From assembly GCA_903932425.1 (NCBI GenBank), contig CAIZGG010000013.1, positions 1 through 63,969 on the forward strand: 63,969 nucleotides of DNA, given 5' to 3'. The stretch comes from an uncultured beta proteobacterium (GTDB taxonomy: Bacteria > Pseudomonadota > Gammaproteobacteria > Burkholderiales > Burkholderiaceae_B). Made by a program: the position numbers and the translations under genes. Positions 13,750 through 22,088 of the stretch are shown here, in pieces. Every line of letters begins with the position of its first letter. The stretch's first letter is position 1. Below the pieces are notes generated by a model, which made no database searches, had not been told where the DNA came from, and saw nothing but the letters and a program-made list of their open reading frames with translations.

Positions 13750-13997
13750 ACAAATCCTTTATAGGTACCGAAAGGGGGCTATGAGACACGGTACGCAGGT
13801 TAAATGAGACGTAAATGGTCGATAATGCTGACAGTCTGGCTAGTAACAACATTGTAAAGTGGTTAGAGGGCGATGCCATGGCTGTCTGGGCTAGATTGGG
13901 CCCGCGACGATCTAGCCGTTGAAAAGAAATTGATTTTCGCACTTCTTGCTAAACTTTGTTCCATTCTTGTTCGATTGACCGGAGTCCTACACACGCT

Positions 13998-14753
13998 ATG
14001 AGTCAGCCCCTTCTTGGCAAAGTTGCCCTTGTGACCGGCGCCGCCCGCGGCATTGGTCGCGCCTGCGCATTGAAACTCGCCTCTGCTGGCTGCGACATCG
14101 TGGCCAACTACTACAACAGTTTTGACGAGGCTGAGGCCGTTTGCGCTGAGGTGCGGGCAATGGGGCGGCGAGCTATTGCGGTGCAGGCCAGTGTCGGTGT
14201 GCCTGATAGCGTGGTCGAGATGTTTGAGGTGATTACCAAAGAATTCGGGCAATTGGATATTGTGATCAGTAATGCCGCCTCTGGCGTGCTCAAGCCGGCC
14301 ATGGAAATGAGCTTGAAGCATTTTCGCTGGTGCCTCGAAACAAACGCGTTCGCGGTGAATTTGTTGGCGCAGCAGGCCTTGCCGCTCATGAAAAATGGCG
14401 GTCGTATTGTGGCAATGTCCAGTTTGGGCGCCCAGCGAGCCATGCCTCACTATGGGTTCATTGGTGCCTCAAAAGCCGCCCTAGAGGCGTTGGTGCGCAC
14501 GCTGGCACAAGAGCTCGGTCCACAAGGTATTCGGGTCAATACGGTTTCGGCTGGGGTGGTAGATACCGACGCGCTCAGTCACTTTCCAAACCGCGACCAG
14601 GTCTTGTCCGAGTTTGCCGCACGCACGCCAGCAGGCCCCAGTTTGCTGCCCACTAACGTTGCCGATGCAGTCTATCTGCTTTGTTTGCCAGAAGCCGCAT
14701 GGATCAATGGCCACACGCTAGTCGTTGATGGCGGCTTTTCAATTTCGGGTTAA
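13998..14753 (+). CDS. FabL-like enoyl-ACP reductase (SDR)
   Basis: Tyr-x6-Lys motif HYGFIGASKAALEAL (Tyr codon 14451, Lys codon 14472); NAASGVLKPAMEM and VDTDALSHFPNRDQVLSEFAARTPAGPSL closely resemble recalled Bacillus FabL. ORF opens at 13956; MSQPLLGKVALVTGAARGIG start preferred. Confidence 0.8.
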   Translation: MSQPLLGKVALVTGAARGIGRACALKLASAGCDIVANYYNSFDEAEAVCAEVRAMGRRAIAVQASVGVPDSVVEMFEVITKEFGQLDIVISNAASGVLKPAMEMSLKHFRWCLETNAFAVNLLAQQALPLMKNGGRIVAMSSLGAQRAMPHYGFIGASKAALEALVRTLAQELGPQGIRVNTVSAGVVDTDALSHFPNRDQVLSEFAARTPAGPSLLPTNVADAVYLLCLPEAAWINGHTLVVDGGFSISG

Positions 14754-14758
14754 ACACC

Positions 14759-15517
14759 ATGAGCTTTGAATCAGGTTTGGCCGGTAAGGTCGCAATTGTG
14801 ACGGGTGGCTCGCGCGGTATTGGGCGCGCCATTGTTGAATGTCTCGCGGCCCAAGGCGTAGATGTGAATTTTTTCTATCGCGGCAACGAGGCTGCTGCCC
14901 TTGAGGTGGTGGCCAGTGTCACGGCTGCTGGCGGTAAAGCCACAGCCCTGCAGGTGGATGTCAGTGACTCTGCGGCCTGTATTGAGGCCGTGAATGCAGT
15001 GGCCGATCGCTGCGAGCGCATTGATATCTTGGTAAATAACGCAGGCATTGTGCGCGATAACCTCATGGCGGTCATGGAAGACGACGAGATTTCTGACGTG
15101 CTTCAGACCAACGTCGGTGGGGTGTTTAATGTGACGCGCCCAGTGATTCCGTTCATGATGTCTCAGCGTGCGGGTCGCATCGTGAACCTGTCGTCTGTGG
15201 CCGGCAATAAGGCAGGGCGTGGGCAGGCTAATTACGCCGCCAGTAAAGGCGCGGTGGATGCGGTCACCCGAGCACTGGCCGTTGAGTTGGCGCCACGCAA
15301 AATCCTGGTCAATGCGGTGGCCCCAGGGGTCATTGATACTGAAATGTCGCAGCAAGTGCGTGATTTGGCTGATGACGAAGTCAAAGGCAAAATATTACTT
15401 AAGCGCTATGGGCAGGCTCAAGAAGTCGCCAATGCGGTGGCCTTTTTGGTGTCGGATATGGCTAGTTACGTCACAGGTCAGATTCTGTACGTCGATGGTG
15501 GCTTTAAGATGGCCTGA
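14759..15517 (+). CDS. 3-oxoacyl-ACP reductase (FabG-type SDR)
   Basis: VAIVTGGSRGIGRAI, LVNNAGIVRDNLM, NLSSVAGNKAGRGQANYAASKGAVDA (YxxxK), VAPGVIDTEM. Confidence 0.9.
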   Translation: MSFESGLAGKVAIVTGGSRGIGRAIVECLAAQGVDVNFFYRGNEAAALEVVASVTAAGGKATALQVDVSDSAACIEAVNAVADRCERIDILVNNAGIVRDNLMAVMEDDEISDVLQTNVGGVFNVTRPVIPFMMSQRAGRIVNLSSVAGNKAGRGQANYAASKGAVDAVTRALAVELAPRKILVNAVAPGVIDTEMSQQVRDLADDEVKGKILLKRYGQAQEVANAVAFLVSDMASYVTGQILYVDGGFKMA

Positions 15518-15619
15518 GTTTTTGGCCAAAGGCGCTCGAGGGATGCCGGCTAGCCAAGAGGGTATCTGCCTACACTTGAGTTAAAATAACGCGCGCTTAC
15601 CTCATATCCGGAGCTAATT

Positions 15620-16048
15620 ATGGCTGAAGCAGTCATCTCGAAAGAAGAAATCATGACGGTGTTTCCAACCGTCCAAAAAACGATGGCAGATGCCCTCGGT
15701 TGCGATGTAGATGACATCAAACTCGATGTATCCCTTATCGAGGGCCTTGACGCCGAATCGATCGACTTCTTGGATATGGTGTTTCGCCTTGAGCGCGCCT
15801 TTAAAATCAAGGTGCCACGCGGCAAAATTATCGAAGACGTGCGCGGCGACATGCCGGTAGCCGAGTTCGAACAAGGCGGTGTCCTGACAGACAAAGGCGT
15901 GGCACGTCTACGTGAGTATCTGTCTGAAATCGACGAATCACGCTTCAAACTACCCATGCGCGTAGATCACATCGCGCGGTTGTATACGCCCGAAACCTTC
16001 TGCAAGCTCGTGATTCGTGCTCAGCGCGCTTCACAAGCTGCTGGCTGA
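15620..16048 (+). CDS. AcpXL-like acyl carrier protein with C-terminal extension (142 aa)
   Basis: GLDAESIDFLDMVFRLERAFKIKVPRGKI resembles AcpXL (…[22 protein letters not shown]…); candidate phosphopantetheine Ser47 codon at 15758-15760. Confidence 0.8.
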   Translation: MAEAVISKEEIMTVFPTVQKTMADALGCDVDDIKLDVSLIEGLDAESIDFLDMVFRLERAFKIKVPRGKIIEDVRGDMPVAEFEQGGVLTDKGVARLREYLSEIDESRFKLPMRVDHIARLYTPETFCKLVIRAQRASQAAG

Positions 16049-16929
16049 TGGTCTTAAGTGCGGCGCGGGCCTCTGGTCCCGCGCCAACCGGTCGCTTTGC
16101 TGCATTTTCCTTTGTCGATCAGATCACTCAAATCCAAGGGGTCACACGTGTGTGTGGCCGCTACACAATCCCAGCAAATATTGAGCATTTCCCTGCCAGT
16201 CTAGTGGCAGAGGCGTTGGGTCAGCTGGCTGCTTGGGTGGCCATGTCGACACTCGGTTTCAGCCACCGCCCCGTAGCGGCCTTGGCTGGCGATACAAAGA
16301 TCTTTTCGCTGGCTAAGCCCGGCGATACGCTTGAGCTGATCGTCGATATTGAATCTTGCGATGCCGAATCCATTCTGTATCGCGGCCATGCCCTTGTGAA
16401 TGGCCGAACTGTGCTCGAGCTCGCCGACACGGTGGGTTCGATGCTTGATATTCACGAGTTTGACGACCCCGCGGCACTTGCCGCTGATTTTGCCCAACTA
16501 AGTACCGAGGGCCGCGCCATCGGCGCTTTCAAAGGCGTGCCGCGGGCAGCCTTAACTGACTTGCCCGCGTCAACGCCCGAGCATCTTCAGGCGCAGCTTG
16601 CCGTGCCCGCATCAGCCGCTTTTTTTGAAGATCATTTTCCACGTCGCCCAGTGTTTCCAGCAACCTTGCTGCTTGATGCTTTGTTGCAATTGGCAAACCC
16701 GGTCGCTGCACACGCAGCGGGTGACACTTTGCTGCGCCTCACACGCATCACCAATGTGAAGGTGCGCGCATTTACCGCGCCGGGTGCTACGCTAGTGCTG
16801 TCTGCCCAACTGGCAACGCCTGGCTCAGACGACCTCGAACCCTATATGGTTAAGCTGACTGCTCAGGCCGAGGGTAAAACAATCGCAGGTGCCAAAATGT
16901 ATTTTGCGCCTGCCGGAGAACTTGCATGA
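16048..16929 (+). CDS. double-hotdog 3-hydroxyacyl-ACP dehydratase-like protein
   Basis: Two hotdog-like halves; second half FFEDHFPRRPVFPATLLLDALLQLA matches the FabZ/FabA His-x13-acid spacing with Asp (as in FabA) in place of Glu. Confidence 0.75.
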   Translation: MVLSAARASGPAPTGRFAAFSFVDQITQIQGVTRVCGRYTIPANIEHFPASLVAEALGQLAAWVAMSTLGFSHRPVAALAGDTKIFSLAKPGDTLELIVDIESCDAESILYRGHALVNGRTVLELADTVGSMLDIHEFDDPAALAADFAQLSTEGRAIGAFKGVPRAALTDLPASTPEHLQAQLAVPASAAFFEDHFPRRPVFPATLLLDALLQLANPVAAHAAGDTLLRLTRITNVKVRAFTAPGATLVLSAQLATPGSDDLEPYMVKLTAQAEGKTIAGAKMYFAPAGELA

Positions 16930-18239
16930 CCACACGACGTCGCGTTGCGATTACAGGCATCGGGCTGGTAACGCCAGCTGGCCTGGACGCTGCTTCAACC
17001 TGGGCGCGGATTAAAGCCGCTCGTAGTTGTGCAGGGCCCATCACGATTTTTGATGCCTCAGGTTTCTCGACACGAATCGCAGCTGAAGTCAAAGGCTTTG
17101 ACGACTTGCCCGCCATTGATGATCGTAAGTTGCTTAAATATGCGAGTCGCGCACACCGCTTTGCACTGGCCGCAGCGGATCAGGCGATCGCCGATGCAGG
17201 CGTGCGTCCTAGCTTGCAAGATGCGGCACGCTGGGGTTGTGTGGTGGGGGCGGGGATGATGACCGTCGCGCACCAAGAAATTGCTGCTGTGCAAAGCGCT
17301 GCAGCACCTGAGGGCGAGTTTATGGCCAGCGCCTTGCTCAACGAGCCCATCGCTAATGATGTCATGGCTTTTAGCCGTAGTTTGTCGACAGCCGGTATTG
17401 CTTTGTTACTGCGTCGGTTTGGTATCCGAGGTTACGCCTCGACGGTGCACACCGCCTGCGCGTCGGGTGGGCAGGCAATCGGTACGGCCATGCGATTAAT
17501 TCGGCGTGGTTTAGCTGATCGAGTCTTGACGGGCGGTTTTGATTCAATGATCTCTCCGGTCGGTCTTTCGGGCTTTTGTTTGCTGTCTGCAGTGTCGCCC
17601 GATAACCATCAGCCCGAGCGCGCCAGTCGCCCGTTTGATCTGACCCGAAACGGGTTTGTGCTGGGTGAGGGTGCGGGCTTTTTAGTGCTTGAAGAATGGA
17701 ACTCTGCTGTGCAGCGTGGCGCAACGATTTACGCTGAGCTGGCTGGTGATGGCAATTCTCTTTCGTCGTATCGCATCACAGATTCTCATCCCTCTGGAGA
17801 TGGGCCGATTCAGTCGATGCGCAGAGCGATTGCCGATGCAGGTGCAAGCATTGCCGACGTCGATTATCTCAATGCCCACGGCACCTCTACACCCATGAAT
17901 GATCGCAGTGAATGTGCCGCGGTCAAGGCCGTATTTGGTGATCGGGTGAATGATGTTGGTGTCAGTTCAACGAAAAGTGTGACGGGCCATTTGATTGCTG
18001 CGGCGGGTGCGGTTGAGGCTGGGCTGTGCGCCTTGGCGATTCGCGATAGCTTGATGCCACCTAATGCTAATTTGCAGCAACTTGACCCTGACTGCGACGT
18101 CAATATCGTGCGGGATACGCCACGTGCCCAACGCATTGGGATGGCTATTTCAAATTCGTTAGGGTTTGGGGGCAGTAATAGTTGCCTGGCTTTCAGACAC
18201 CCCGAAGATACAGCGGCGCTTGTCGCCTCAGGACGGTGA
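16926..18239 (+). CDS. beta-ketoacyl-ACP synthase (FabF-like, intact Cys-His-His)
   Basis: VHTACASGGQAIG (Cys codon 17457), YLNAHGTSTPMNDRSE, STKSVTGHLIAAAGAVEA. Confidence 0.9.
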   Translation: MTTRRRVAITGIGLVTPAGLDAASTWARIKAARSCAGPITIFDASGFSTRIAAEVKGFDDLPAIDDRKLLKYASRAHRFALAAADQAIADAGVRPSLQDAARWGCVVGAGMMTVAHQEIAAVQSAAAPEGEFMASALLNEPIANDVMAFSRSLSTAGIALLLRRFGIRGYASTVHTACASGGQAIGTAMRLIRRGLADRVLTGGFDSMISPVGLSGFCLLSAVSPDNHQPERASRPFDLTRNGFVLGEGAGFLVLEEWNSAVQRGATIYAELAGDGNSLSSYRITDSHPSGDGPIQSMRRAIADAGASIADVDYLNAHGTSTPMNDRSECAAVKAVFGDRVNDVGVSSTKSVTGHLIAAAGAVEAGLCALAIRDSLMPPNANLQQLDPDCDVNIVRDTPRAQRIGMAISNSLGFGGSNSCLAFRHPEDTAALVASGR

Positions 18240-18244
18240 ACGCC

Positions 18245-19516
18245 ATGAGTCGAATCGTAATCACAGGAAATGGTGCGATCTGCGGTGCAGGGACTGACCC
18301 CGGCAGTATCGTTGAGGCCTTGCTGGCAGGGCGTTCGGCTTTAGCCCCGATCACGGGTTTTGACGCCGAACAGTTTCAAGGCCGCCTCGCAGCCGAAGTG
18401 CCTGACTATAACGGTGGCAAGTTGCTTGGTGACCGTAAATTGCTCAAGCTTGTACGTCGCTCTGATGTCTTTGGTATCTACGCGGGTAGTCAGGCGATTG
18501 AGCAAGCTGGTTTGCCGGCATGGCGCGAAGCGCTTGACGAGGCCGCGGCAGCGAACTACGCAGATCAAACTGGTTGCTATGTGGGCTCGGGCGGAGGCGC
18601 CTTTGAAGTCAATTACGACTTTTTTCCTCTGATGGCCGAAACAAAAAACGATTTGAATGGCTTCGGCCGTGAACTCTCGAACATGGTCAATCCCATGTGG
18701 TTGCTCAAGTCGCTGCCTAATAATGTGCTGTGTCATATCAGCATCCGTCATCAGCTTAAAGGACCAAACGGCTGCATCACCAACCACACGTCGAGCGGGA
18801 TTTTGTCGGTGATTGAAAGTGCGTGGGCGTTGCGCGAAGGCGATGCCCAGCGCGTCGTTGCAGTGGGTCACGATGCCCCGATTGAGCCGCAAACCTTGTT
18901 GTATCTTGATCGAGTCGGTTTGATTGGCAAAGATATTTTGCGTCCCTTTGATCAGCGGCACGATGGTTGTTTGTTGGGCGAAGGGGCCGCTTCGCTTGTC
19001 CTTGAAACTGAGGCCTCGGCGCAAGAGCGCGGTGCGACAGTGCTGGGCGAATACCTAGGCGGCGGAGACGCCTCAGAAGGCGAGGGTTTATTTTGCATTC
19101 GCGCTGATGGTGATGGGTTGAGTCGTGCGATTGAATTGGCTTTAGCCGACGCACAACTTCAGCCTGCAGACGTTGGCATGATTGTGGCGCATGGTAATGG
19201 TACGCAAGAGTCTGACGCGTCAGAGGCCGCGGCGTTGTTGCGTGTATTTGGTAACGACATGCCGCCGGTCACTGGTTTTAAATGGTCGGTCGGACACCTT
19301 TTTGCGGCATCGGGGCTCTTGGATGTCGCCGTGGGCCTTGAAGCGTGTCGACGCCAGGTGGTGCCAGGGATTGTCCCTCTTGAACGCTTAGCTGACGCCT
19401 GCGCGGGGCTCAATGTCTCTCAGCAAACGCGCGCACCGCGTAGCGATGTCGTATTAGTTTTGTGCCGTGGATTTGCGGGCACGAATGGCGCGTTGCTGTT
19501 GCGCGCGATTAAATAG
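18245..19516 (+). CDS. beta-ketoacyl synthase-like protein lacking active-site Cys (chain-length-factor-like)
   Basis: KGPNGCITNHTSSGILSVIESAW aligns with the FabF GPxxxxxTACxSG region, with Thr (codon 18788) at the nucleophile position; VAHGNGTQESDASE and KWSVGHLFAASG retain both His. ORF opens upstream at 18182. Confidence 0.85.
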   Translation: MSRIVITGNGAICGAGTDPGSIVEALLAGRSALAPITGFDAEQFQGRLAAEVPDYNGGKLLGDRKLLKLVRRSDVFGIYAGSQAIEQAGLPAWREALDEAAAANYADQTGCYVGSGGGAFEVNYDFFPLMAETKNDLNGFGRELSNMVNPMWLLKSLPNNVLCHISIRHQLKGPNGCITNHTSSGILSVIESAWALREGDAQRVVAVGHDAPIEPQTLLYLDRVGLIGKDILRPFDQRHDGCLLGEGAASLVLETEASAQERGATVLGEYLGGGDASEGEGLFCIRADGDGLSRAIELALADAQLQPADVGMIVAHGNGTQESDASEAAALLRVFGNDMPPVTGFKWSVGHLFAASGLLDVAVGLEACRRQVVPGIVPLERLADACAGLNVSQQTRAPRSDVVLVLCRGFAGTNGALLLRAIK

Positions 19517-19517
19517 A

Positions 19518-20750
19518 GTGTTTGTGTCGACAGGTCAGCCTGAAGCGTTGCCCGATGGCTGTGCGGTCGACACGATTGAAATCGCCCGTATCGCCCGCTT
19601 AATCGAGGCCCTACCGGGCGACCTTGAAAAGTTATTTTCTGCCCAAGAGTTAAGCGATGCCGGCGAAGGCGCTGGCCGTGTCGCGAGCTTGGCCGCACGC
19701 TTTGCCGCGAAAGAGGCTTGTTTAAAACTTTTTCCGCGCGAAACAGCACTGAACACTATTACGGCGATGGATTTCTCGGTTGTGCGTGATGCGTATGGCG
19801 CCCCGCAGGTGGTCGCCAGTCGCGCGGCTCAAATCGTGCTGGGCCTGCATTTAGTGGCCGAAATTAAACTATCTTTGACTCACACCCCGTTGTCGGCAAC
19901 CGCTGTGGCGTTGCGAGTGCCCAAGGTGATCAAGCCCAGTCGGGCCGGGCGCTTTGTGTATCAATGGTTGCCCTATCGGCGTCAGGTGATTTTAGATAAT
20001 TTAAATCGTGTGTACGGGGCGCAGGTGAGCCCGCAGCAAATCAAATTGCTTGCGCAAGCTCATTACGGGCATTTACTCAAGTTGCTGAAAGAGTTGTTGC
20101 AATTTCGGTTTATGTCGGCTCAACAAAAGAAAGATATTGTTAGAGTCGAAGGTGTACCTGAGATGATCAAGGCCTTTGAGGCCGGCAAGGGTGTACTGAT
20201 TTTGACCGGGCACTTTGGCAATTTTGAAGTTTCTACCGTGGCCGGAATTGAACATTTTCCGCAGGTCAAGGGGCGCATTCATTTTTTGCGTCGCCCAATC
20301 AAGCCCAAATGGCTGAGTAATTTGCTGACCCGCCGGTTTAATCAAGCTGGTTTTGGGGTCGTAGGTCGCCGAGGGTCTCTTGAAGAAATCGTCGCCACCC
20401 TTGAACGGGGCGACGCGGTGGTGTTTCCGTTTGATCAATATGCGCGGCGGCCAGAAGGCATTGAAGTCGAGTTTTTTGGTTATGCCGCCGGTACTTACAA
20501 AAGCATGGCGTTGATTGCCCTGGCAACCGGAGCCCCCGTGTTGCCGGCAGCCTCATGGCGCGAGGCCGACGGCAAACATGTACTGCGGTTTTTACCGCCG
20601 CTCGAGCCGATTGTCGATGACGATGTTGGTGCCGAAATCAAACGCAATACACGTGCCTTTAATCAGGCACTTGAACTTGCGATTGTCGAGCACCCCGAGC
20701 AGTGGTGGTGGGTGCACCGACGCTGGAAAAATCAGCCTGCTATCAAATAG
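19518..20750 (+). CDS. holo-ACP synthase (AcpS) / LpxL-HtrB family acyltransferase fusion
   Basis: N-terminal VDTIEIARIARLIEALPGDLEKLFSAQEL...SLAARFAAKEACLKLF (AcpS) continuous with C-terminal LILTGHFGNFEVSTVAG (HX4E) ...YARRPEGIEVEFFG...QWWWVHRRWKN (LpxL/HtrB). Open frame from 19467; GTG 19518 follows the upstream stop. Confidence 0.82.
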   Translation: MFVSTGQPEALPDGCAVDTIEIARIARLIEALPGDLEKLFSAQELSDAGEGAGRVASLAARFAAKEACLKLFPRETALNTITAMDFSVVRDAYGAPQVVASRAAQIVLGLHLVAEIKLSLTHTPLSATAVALRVPKVIKPSRAGRFVYQWLPYRRQVILDNLNRVYGAQVSPQQIKLLAQAHYGHLLKLLKELLQFRFMSAQQKKDIVRVEGVPEMIKAFEAGKGVLILTGHFGNFEVSTVAGIEHFPQVKGRIHFLRRPIKPKWLSNLLTRRFNQAGFGVVGRRGSLEEIVATLERGDAVVFPFDQYARRPEGIEVEFFGYAAGTYKSMALIALATGAPVLPAASWREADGKHVLRFLPPLEPIVDDDVGAEIKRNTRAFNQALELAIVEHPEQWWWVHRRWKNQPAIK

Positions 20751-21047: not shown

Positions 21048-21410
21048 TTAGCGTTTGCAAGGAAACGTCTCGCCCAAATAACGCAAAATCGTATCTGAGG
21101 CAGAGGCCTGGTTGAACTGAGGTTGTGTGGCCGACCATTTCACAAAGTTATTAATGTGCTCTTGGCGTGTCAGCGTTGAGTTTTGCGCGCAGATAAAGCC
21201 AGGAGCGTTTTTAGGATGACGTGTCACGAGATAGGTTTCGTAGACACCTTGCCCGTAACCATGACAAAAGTTTTGAGCGGCGACATCCGCGGTGTTTGCA
21301 CACATACTGACAAATTTTTCAGTCGTTGTGGTTGCTGCCGGGGCTTGTTGGGCCGATGCGGTGGCGCTAGCCGCCGCCAGGCAAAGTAGTGCGATTTGTT
21401 TTTTCATCAT
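21048..21410 (-). CDS. Rap1a/Tai-like domain protein (secreted, Cys-containing)
   Basis: Signal peptide; FVSMCANTADVAAQNFCHGYGQGVYETY...GFICAQNSTLTRQEHINNFVKWSATQP...TFPCKR, the Cys/Trp pattern I associate with the Rap1a_Tai family. Confidence 0.6.
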   Translation of the reverse strand: MMKKQIALLCLAAASATASAQQAPAATTTTEKFVSMCANTADVAAQNFCHGYGQGVYETYLVTRHPKNAPGFICAQNSTLTRQEHINNFVKWSATQPQFNQASASDTILRYLGETFPCKR

Positions 21411-21782: not shown

Positions 21783-22088
21783 TTAAGCTTTTTTCACGTG
21801 TGCGTTACACCAGGCAGCTGCAGCAACAAGCTTGCCTGGGAAGATTGCACAGGCGCCCGCTTCGGCTGACTTGCTTGCGTACAATTGGCAGTTAGCGCAA
21901 TTTTGGCCGTCGGCATACTTGGCAAATTTTGCCTTGTCGACCGTGGTTGCAACAGCTTTGTAGCCTAAGGCAACGGCCTGTGGCTCGGTTTCACCGATCA
22001 GAGCTTGCGCGTTGGCTTGTTGCGCAAGGGGCAGTGTGGCTAAGCCAGCTGCTGTGTAAATAATGAATTGGCGACGTGATGTTTTCAT
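21783..22088 (-). CDS. high-potential iron-sulfur protein (HiPIP), Tat-exported
   Basis: SRRQFIIYTAAGLATLPL Tat-like signal; GQNCANCQLYASKSAEAGACAIFPGKLVAAAAWCNAHV, the four-Cys HiPIP pattern. Confidence 0.88.
   Translation of the reverse strand: MKTSRRQFIIYTAAGLATLPLAQQANAQALIGETEPQAVALGYKAVATTVDKAKFAKYADGQNCANCQLYASKSAEAGACAIFPGKLVAAAAWCNAHVKKA

Follow-up and report, generated by a model that had tools for sequence, protein, structure and literature searches.

Introduction

In rhizobia and Agrobacterium, the acpXL-fabZXL-fabF2XL-fabF1XL-adhXL-lpxXL cluster is dedicated to the very-long-chain fatty acid of lipid A (PMC11901934). We describe here a seven-gene module at positions 13998-20750 of a 63,969-nt stretch of DNA from an uncultured beta proteobacterium (contig CAIZGG010000013.1; the whole stretch is referred to as the window). 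The module shares with the rhizobial cluster a dedicated acyl carrier protein (ACP), a dehydratase, an active ketosynthase (KS) with a Cys-less partner, and a terminal acyltransferase of the LpxL family. It differs in having its own FabL-type enoyl reductase, FabG and phosphopantetheinyl transferase (PPTase), a difference already recognized in a preliminary description of this DNA and confirmed here. The module dehydratase is a double-hotdog enzyme whereas that of the rhizobial cluster is a stand-alone FabZ (FabZXL), and neither FabZXL nor the adhXL dehydrogenase is found among the module genes.

Other described systems share parts of the module. LpxL, LpxM and PatA belong to the same family (PF03279) as the module acyltransferase and have the same HX4E dyad and fold, but the module enzyme is fused to AcpS, is encoded together with its own type II fatty acid synthase (FAS-II), and falls into a clade separate from the housekeeping PF03279 copies of the same genomes. 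The module enoyl reductase is a member of the FabL family (NF005975) by score and by its Tyr-X6-Lys spacing; unlike the FabL used for bulk synthesis, it is tied genetically to a dedicated module. The aryl polyene (ape) cluster of E. coli CFT073 also has a KS with a Cys-less partner, a FabG, a hotdog dehydratase, an ACP and an acyltransferase of the lysophospholipid type. However, it has no enoyl reductase, a half-size ApeC and two ACPs, and it carries ligase, glycosyltransferase (GT2), LolA and MMPL genes, none of which occur in the module.

Our interpretation, to which we assign a probability of roughly 0.55, is that the operon would encode a dedicated FAS-II with its own delivery enzyme, lipid A being the most probable target. 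When the target is taken more broadly, as lipid A or another envelope lipid, we consider it likely that the module is a dedicated acyl-chain synthase feeding such a lipid.

Gene content and catalytic residues of the module

The list of open reading frames (ORFs) and their translations places seven tightly packed genes on the forward (+) strand, in the order FabL, FabG, ACP, double-hotdog dehydratase, KS, Cys-less KS partner and AcpS-LpxL fusion. Apart from the likeness of the ACP to AcpXL, the families proposed for them from the sequence alone agree with the Pfam and NCBIfam matches and, for the dehydratase and the fusion, with AlphaFold/Foldseek. Their spacing is operon-like with one 102-nt gap ahead of the ACP: FabL and FabG are 5 nt apart, the ACP and dehydratase genes overlap by 1 nt and the dehydratase and KS genes by 4 nt, 5 nt separate the KS from its partner, and, with GTG at 19524 taken as the start codon, 7 nt separate the partner from the fusion.

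Conservation of catalytic residues was assessed in an alignment of 23 representative sequences. The FabL-type enoyl-ACP reductase (251 aa; 13998..14753) scored 339.7 bits against the NCBIfam equivalog NF005975 (cut-off 328), and its YGFIGASK-type motif, with Tyr-X6-Lys spacing, is kept in the aligned relatives, the L118 sequence being truncated by a contig end. The FabG-type 3-ketoacyl-ACP reductase (252 aa; 14759..15517) scored below the equivalog cut-off of TIGR01830 (264.7 bits against 297.75) and above that of the FabG subfamily PRK12826.1-2 (241 bits against 222); it also matched PF13561/PF00106 and carries the motif NYAASK. The dedicated ACP (142 aa; 15620..16048) has a C-terminal extension, matched PF00550 (8.4e-8), and retains its phosphopantetheine site, AES[I/V]DFLD, in all 23 aligned sequences. 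The dehydratase (293 aa; 16048..16929) is a FabA-type hotdog protein by Pfam (PF07977). Its AlphaFold model (predicted local distance difference test, pLDDT, 90.2) contains two hotdog folds, and Foldseek matched it to double-hotdog enzymes, with 2cf2_C, the dehydratase part of a mammalian fatty acid synthase model, at the top. A single composite His/Glu active site is the likely design, because Glu55 of the N-terminal hotdog and His196 of the C-terminal hotdog are invariant in the 23 sequences and the alternative Asp/Glu of the C-terminal hotdog varies.

The active KS (437 aa; 16926..18239) scored 424 bits against TIGR03150, under the equivalog cut-off of 493.75, and 407.7 bits against PRK07314 (cut-off 387). 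Its Cys-His-His triad (TACASG and both His residues) is kept across the 23 representatives. At the pocket gate, the site of Ile108 in EcFabF is occupied by Met, and the gate residues give no safe prediction of chain length. The partner KS (423 aa; 18245..19516) is full-length and belongs to the ketoacyl-synthase families PF00109/PF02801. Its nucleophile site reads TNHTSSG, with Thr in place of Cys, and both His residues are kept throughout the aligned lineages. The preliminary description of this partner as Cys-less holds for the window but not for all relatives: the window's genus has Thr at this position, other Burkholderiales have Ser, and Verrucomicrobia and locus L112 have Cys. In the sister-genus genome G234 the match to the partner KS runs over two frames (L044:8182-9446), perhaps because the gene is interrupted there by a frameshift or by a sequencing error. 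Three module-bearing metagenome-assembled genomes (MAGs) have a second copy of the partner KS away from the module (L066:10001-12267, L074:9953-12266 and L119:2510-4506), with Ala at the nucleophile site and, in L119, an internal deletion. These copies directly precede a membrane fatty-acid desaturase (PF00487), and may be an interchangeable partner that sets chain length, accompanied by a modifying enzyme.

The AcpS-LpxL fusion (19524..20750, with a likely GTG start at 19524) lies in a single ORF of 427 aa that is open from 19467. This ORF matched both PF01648 (26.5 bits, cut-off 25; TIGR00556, 48.5 bits, cut-off 45.35) and PF03279 (115.5 bits, cut-off 22.3). The AcpS (4'-phosphopantetheinyl transferase) domain extends over approximately 19557..19922 and the LpxL/PatA-type acyltransferase domain over approximately 19941..20729. 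Both are confident in the AlphaFold model (pLDDT 87.3), and by Foldseek the acyltransferase half matched PatA (5oce) and LpxM (5kn7) and the AcpS half matched 3qmn and 5vbx. The HX4E dyad (HFGNFE in the window) is kept in the 23 sequences. The AcpS motifs [V/I/L]D[T/S] and RFAA[K/R]EA are kept in the 21 sequences that bear the domain, with small variants in L106 and L105. The fusion is present in the window as first proposed, but it is not constant: the sister genus and three Verrucomicrobial loci (L118, L192 and L193) have either a degenerate AcpS part or none. From these losses, the fused AcpS is dispensable, presumably through takeover by the housekeeping AcpS.

The set of KS, ketoreductase, dehydratase, enoyl reductase, ACP, PPTase and acyltransferase is complete, and its catalytic residues are conserved. 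The module has no malonyl-CoA:ACP transacylase (MAT) and no KSIII, both presumed to be supplied by the cell; the earlier reading of MAT as the missing activity, with housekeeping FabD presumed in its place, stands.

Distribution of the module

The window's genome is a MAG of 84% completeness and 6% contamination, and its named relatives are Zwartia, Jezberella and Sheuella, of the freshwater GKS98 group of Alcaligenaceae. Among 251 genomes surveyed from the family, the fusion was found in 27 of the 29 belonging to the window's genus (Zwartia/Jezberella) and in two of the sister genus. One further genome carried it among 150 sampled from the order, where the remaining matches were ordinary LpxL. 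The 398 other Pseudomonadota sampled had no copy; in one Verrucomicrobial order, 7 of 196 genomes had it. The cultured carriers are Zwartia hollandica, Z. vadi, Z. panacis and Jezberella montanilacus.

A scan for the partner KS yielded 66 named loci. Wherever contigs permit, the seven-gene order is unchanged, in the genus, in scattered Burkholderiales, in Verrucomicrobia and in one Methylomirabilota MAG, and tblastn with verified proteins showed that the flanks vary from group to group. The neighborhood survey suggested in the preliminary description for Burkholderiales found the same operon there and in other phyla. A fixed order in dozens of loci from at least two phyla is not due to chance. 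No mobile element was seen with the module; the invariant order combined with a patchy distribution points to its having moved as a unit. Some database labels of carriers look doubtful: four MAGs titled 'Bordetella parapertussis' (L057, L080, L086 and L097) have loci of the freshwater Alcaligenaceae type, a fifth (L120) has a locus of a more distant Burkholderiales type, and two titled 'Akkermansia muciniphila' (L111 and L115) have Verrucomicrobial copies of the module.

Relationship to the rhizobial acpXL system

For comparison, rhizobial-type clusters were taken from genomes with a true AcpXL. In a KS tree from which partner sequences were left out, the module KS grouped with rhizobial FabF1XL (Shimodaira-Hasegawa-like approximate likelihood ratio test, SH-aLRT, 98.6; ultrafast bootstrap, UFBoot, 90), and the grouping had a UFBoot of 82 when the partners were included. 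The module KS stood apart from FabF, FabB-like KSs, ApeO and ApeR. Rhizobial FabF2XL has Glu at the nucleophile position and so is likewise Cys-less, but it lacks the first His, whereas the module partner keeps both. The module proteins fell below the cut-offs of the rhizobial families: the window's ACP scored 35.2 bits and that of L116 54.4 bits against AcpXL (PRK06508, cut-off 83), the KS and partner scored 310 and 49 bits against PRK06501 and PRK06519 (FabF1XL and FabF2XL, cut-offs 629 and 320), and the acyltransferase scored 103.6 bits against LpxXL (PRK06553, cut-off 273). True AcpXL was found in 13 of 150 Pseudomonadota and not in the window's genome.

Because the ACP, KSs and acyltransferase score under the rhizobial cut-offs, the dehydratase architecture differs and AdhXL is lacking, we judge that the module resembles the acpXL system in its working but is not itself one. 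The rhizobial cluster had been put forward as the closest architecture; the KS phylogeny gives this likeness some support and a Cys-less partner is shared. Assignment of the ACP to the AcpXL family is not supported.

The lipid acceptor

Genes for PF03279 proteins outside the module fall into two clades, of which clade 2 includes E. coli LpxL. Within the genus, six good-quality carriers and two non-carriers were scored for these clades. All six carriers (G172, G205, G253, G272, G304 and G330; 95-100% complete) have clade 1 and lack clade 2. In the window's genome (G000) only a clade 1 copy was present, and an E. coli-type LpxL was not found. Both clades are present in the cassette-less congener G231 and in five related non-carriers (G003, G098, G138, G150 and G151). 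The missing E. coli-type LpxL in carriers of the genus suggests replacement by the module, and for this reason lipid A is the acceptor that we would favor, by a modest preference.

Several observations weigh against lipid A. The sister-genus carriers G234 and G256 keep both clades beside the module, carriers G010 and G397 keep clade 2 beside it, and the cassette-less G318 (a MAG of 94% completeness) has neither the module nor clade 2. The replacement pattern rests on few genomes and few independent events. Support in the tree for the position of the LpxL domain relative to LpxXL is weak, and PatA, which has a different acceptor, shares the fold of the module acyltransferase. Published fatty acids of Zwartia, with C16:0 and cyclo-C17:0 the main ones in Z. 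vadi and Z. panacis, include no obvious unusual chain (PMC10535154). Since the sister-genus carriers keep both, the common ancestor probably had the module together with clade 2, one or the other being lost later; alternating loss of this kind would be expected if the two overlapped in lipid A acylation. As for the fatty acids, the MIDI method probably would not name chains longer than C20, so the Zwartia data speak neither for nor against a very long chain. A separate arrangement was seen in two Burkholderiales carriers (L209 in G398 and L210 in G399), which have neither housekeeping LpxL clade and possess another pair of PF03279 proteins with the motif LAAHxxNWEWLL.

With lipid A as acceptor, the module could work as follows. 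The AcpS half of the fusion would activate the module's own ACP, with housekeeping FabD as the presumed malonate loader. The KS would elongate the chain, probably as a heterodimer with the Cys-less partner, which may shape the pocket and the chain length, and each two-carbon unit would be fully reduced by FabG, the double-hotdog dehydratase and FabL. Once complete, the saturated chain would pass from the ACP to the LpxL-type half of the fusion for transfer to an envelope lipid, most probably lipid A, where it would form a secondary acyl chain; in the window's genus this acyltransferase may have replaced the ordinary LpxL. The analysis establishes gene content and order, catalytic residues, distribution, phylogeny and which genomes have LpxL genes; the protein interactions, chain length and acceptor in this scheme are inferred.

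An extended form of the operon

Most Burkholderiales versions and some of those in Verrucomicrobia have an extended form of the operon, with an ICMT/PEMT methyltransferase, a PapA/condensation-like protein, and one or two alpha/beta-hydrolase lipoproteins. In ten Burkholderiales loci (L089, L091, L096, L101, L104, L105, L106, L108, L110 and L120) the extra genes precede FabL, and three Verrucomicrobial loci (L111, L115 and L117) also have them upstream, arranged differently; examples are L089:1458-5591, L106:1432-5478 and L115:2257-5284. None of these genes adjoins the module in L090, L100, L103, L112 or L116. The hydrolase lipoproteins have an invariant lipobox Cys and a GHSQGG-type Ser. Asp does not follow the Cys, and under the E. 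coli Lol rule this predicts an outer-membrane location. Neither the PapA-like nor the hydrolase family gave a Pfam or NCBIfam name above cut-off. The methyltransferase matched Leptospira LmtA, a lipid A phosphate methyltransferase, weakly (1.2e-5) and far below cut-off; this likeness would fit lipid A as acceptor but is a lead only. A search with positive controls detected no member of the hydrolase family in Zwartia, Jezberella, G234 or G010, and a search run without a control gave no PapA-like protein there.

The extended form bears on the strongest alternative, in which the same FAS-II would serve an acyltransferase directed at another membrane lipid (a glycolipid, phospholipid or amino-lipid), much as PatA acts on phosphatidylinositol mannosides; finishing and positioning that lipid would then fall to the PapA-like protein, the methyltransferase and the lipoprotein hydrolases. 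We regard this as possible, though distinctly less probable than lipid A. PatA is the best fold match of the acyltransferase, with LpxM behind, and the LpxL domain lies outside both housekeeping lipid A clades. The PapA/condensation-like and hydrolase genes of the extended operon would also fit, as would the three unidentified lipids and the aminolipid of Z. vadi (PMC10535154). On the other hand, the seven-gene form contains no gene for acceptor synthesis such as a glycosyltransferase or head-group enzyme, Zwartia, Jezberella, G234 and G010 have no lipoprotein hydrolase, and the genus carriers tested lack the ordinary LpxL.

Assembly of FAS-II parts into a polyketide-type secondary metabolite cluster, of the aryl polyene or dialkylresorcinol/flexirubin type, we consider improbable. 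The KS with its Cys-less partner, the hotdog dehydratase and the acyltransferase recall aryl polyene clusters, and FabG also scores with FlxB (249.5 bits, cut-off 340), but the enoyl reductase would remove a conjugated polyene. AMP ligase, thioesterase, GT2, LolA and MMPL genes such as those of the E. coli CFT073 cluster are not present, and the KS lies away from ApeO and ApeR in the tree. ApeC is half-size (PMC8358021) whereas the module partner is full-length, and Z. hollandica is described as unpigmented. Identity with the aryl polyene cluster was rejected on the enoyl reductase, the full-length partner and the missing ligase, GT2, LolA and MMPL genes; resolution into a known cluster of this sort, named in the preliminary description as an outcome that would contradict it, did not occur.

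A FabI homologue is kept in 8 of 8 tested genomes of the genus (270-330 bits, read by comparison with control genomes, the family cut-off being missed by most matches and by all controls), and a separate FabF in 9 of 9 genomes checked. Because carriers keep these enzymes, the module is not housekeeping; together with the full gene set, this supports the original view of a dedicated, self-contained FAS-II in a betaproteobacterium. A redundant back-up of fatty-acid synthesis, such as an inhibitor-resistant FabL route, is very unlikely, for although FabL is an alternative enoyl reductase family and MAT and KSIII are the only core activities lacking, such a role would hardly call for an ACP of its own, a Cys-less KS partner or a fused LpxL, the genomes also have FabI and FabF, and the distribution is patchy.

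Sequences flanking the module

The intergenic region at 13750..13997 (+), between a divergent gene for an mmsA-like aldehyde dehydrogenase and fabL, is presumed from its position to contain the operon promoter; a promoter and terminator scan performed at chance level. A PHROGs search gave nothing useful. In many genomes of the window's genus the module is followed by a Rap1a-type small protein (PF18602; window 21048-21410) and a HIPIP iron-sulfur protein (PF01355; window 21783-22088). These neighbors are conserved in the genus and were not seen adjoining the module in other carriers.

Significance

The module is real, conserved and apparently undescribed, no account of it or of an AcpS-LpxL fusion having been found in the open-licence literature. 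New here are the extended operon, the grouping of the KS with FabF1XL, the absence of an E. coli-type LpxL from the carriers tested in the genus, and the lineage-dependent nucleophile position of the partner. More tentatively, the operon may be a lipid-acylation unit exchanged horizontally, in a form of seven genes and another of approximately ten to eleven, which in Betaproteobacteria and Verrucomicrobia would build an acyl chain not yet described and attach it to a lipid of the outer membrane. With the methyltransferase, the PapA-like protein and the lipoprotein hydrolases, the finished lipid class would be unlike the rhizobial lipid A with its very-long-chain fatty acid.

If our interpretation is correct, a fixed block of genes provides a private acyl chain along with carrier activation and transfer, and has crossed phyla. 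To our knowledge, dedicated FAS-II systems with a terminal LpxL-type enzyme and a fully reduced chain are known only from the rhizobial type, and the module would be the first outside it. The cultured carriers make the module directly testable, and a core lipid A gene may have been displaced in a common freshwater lineage.

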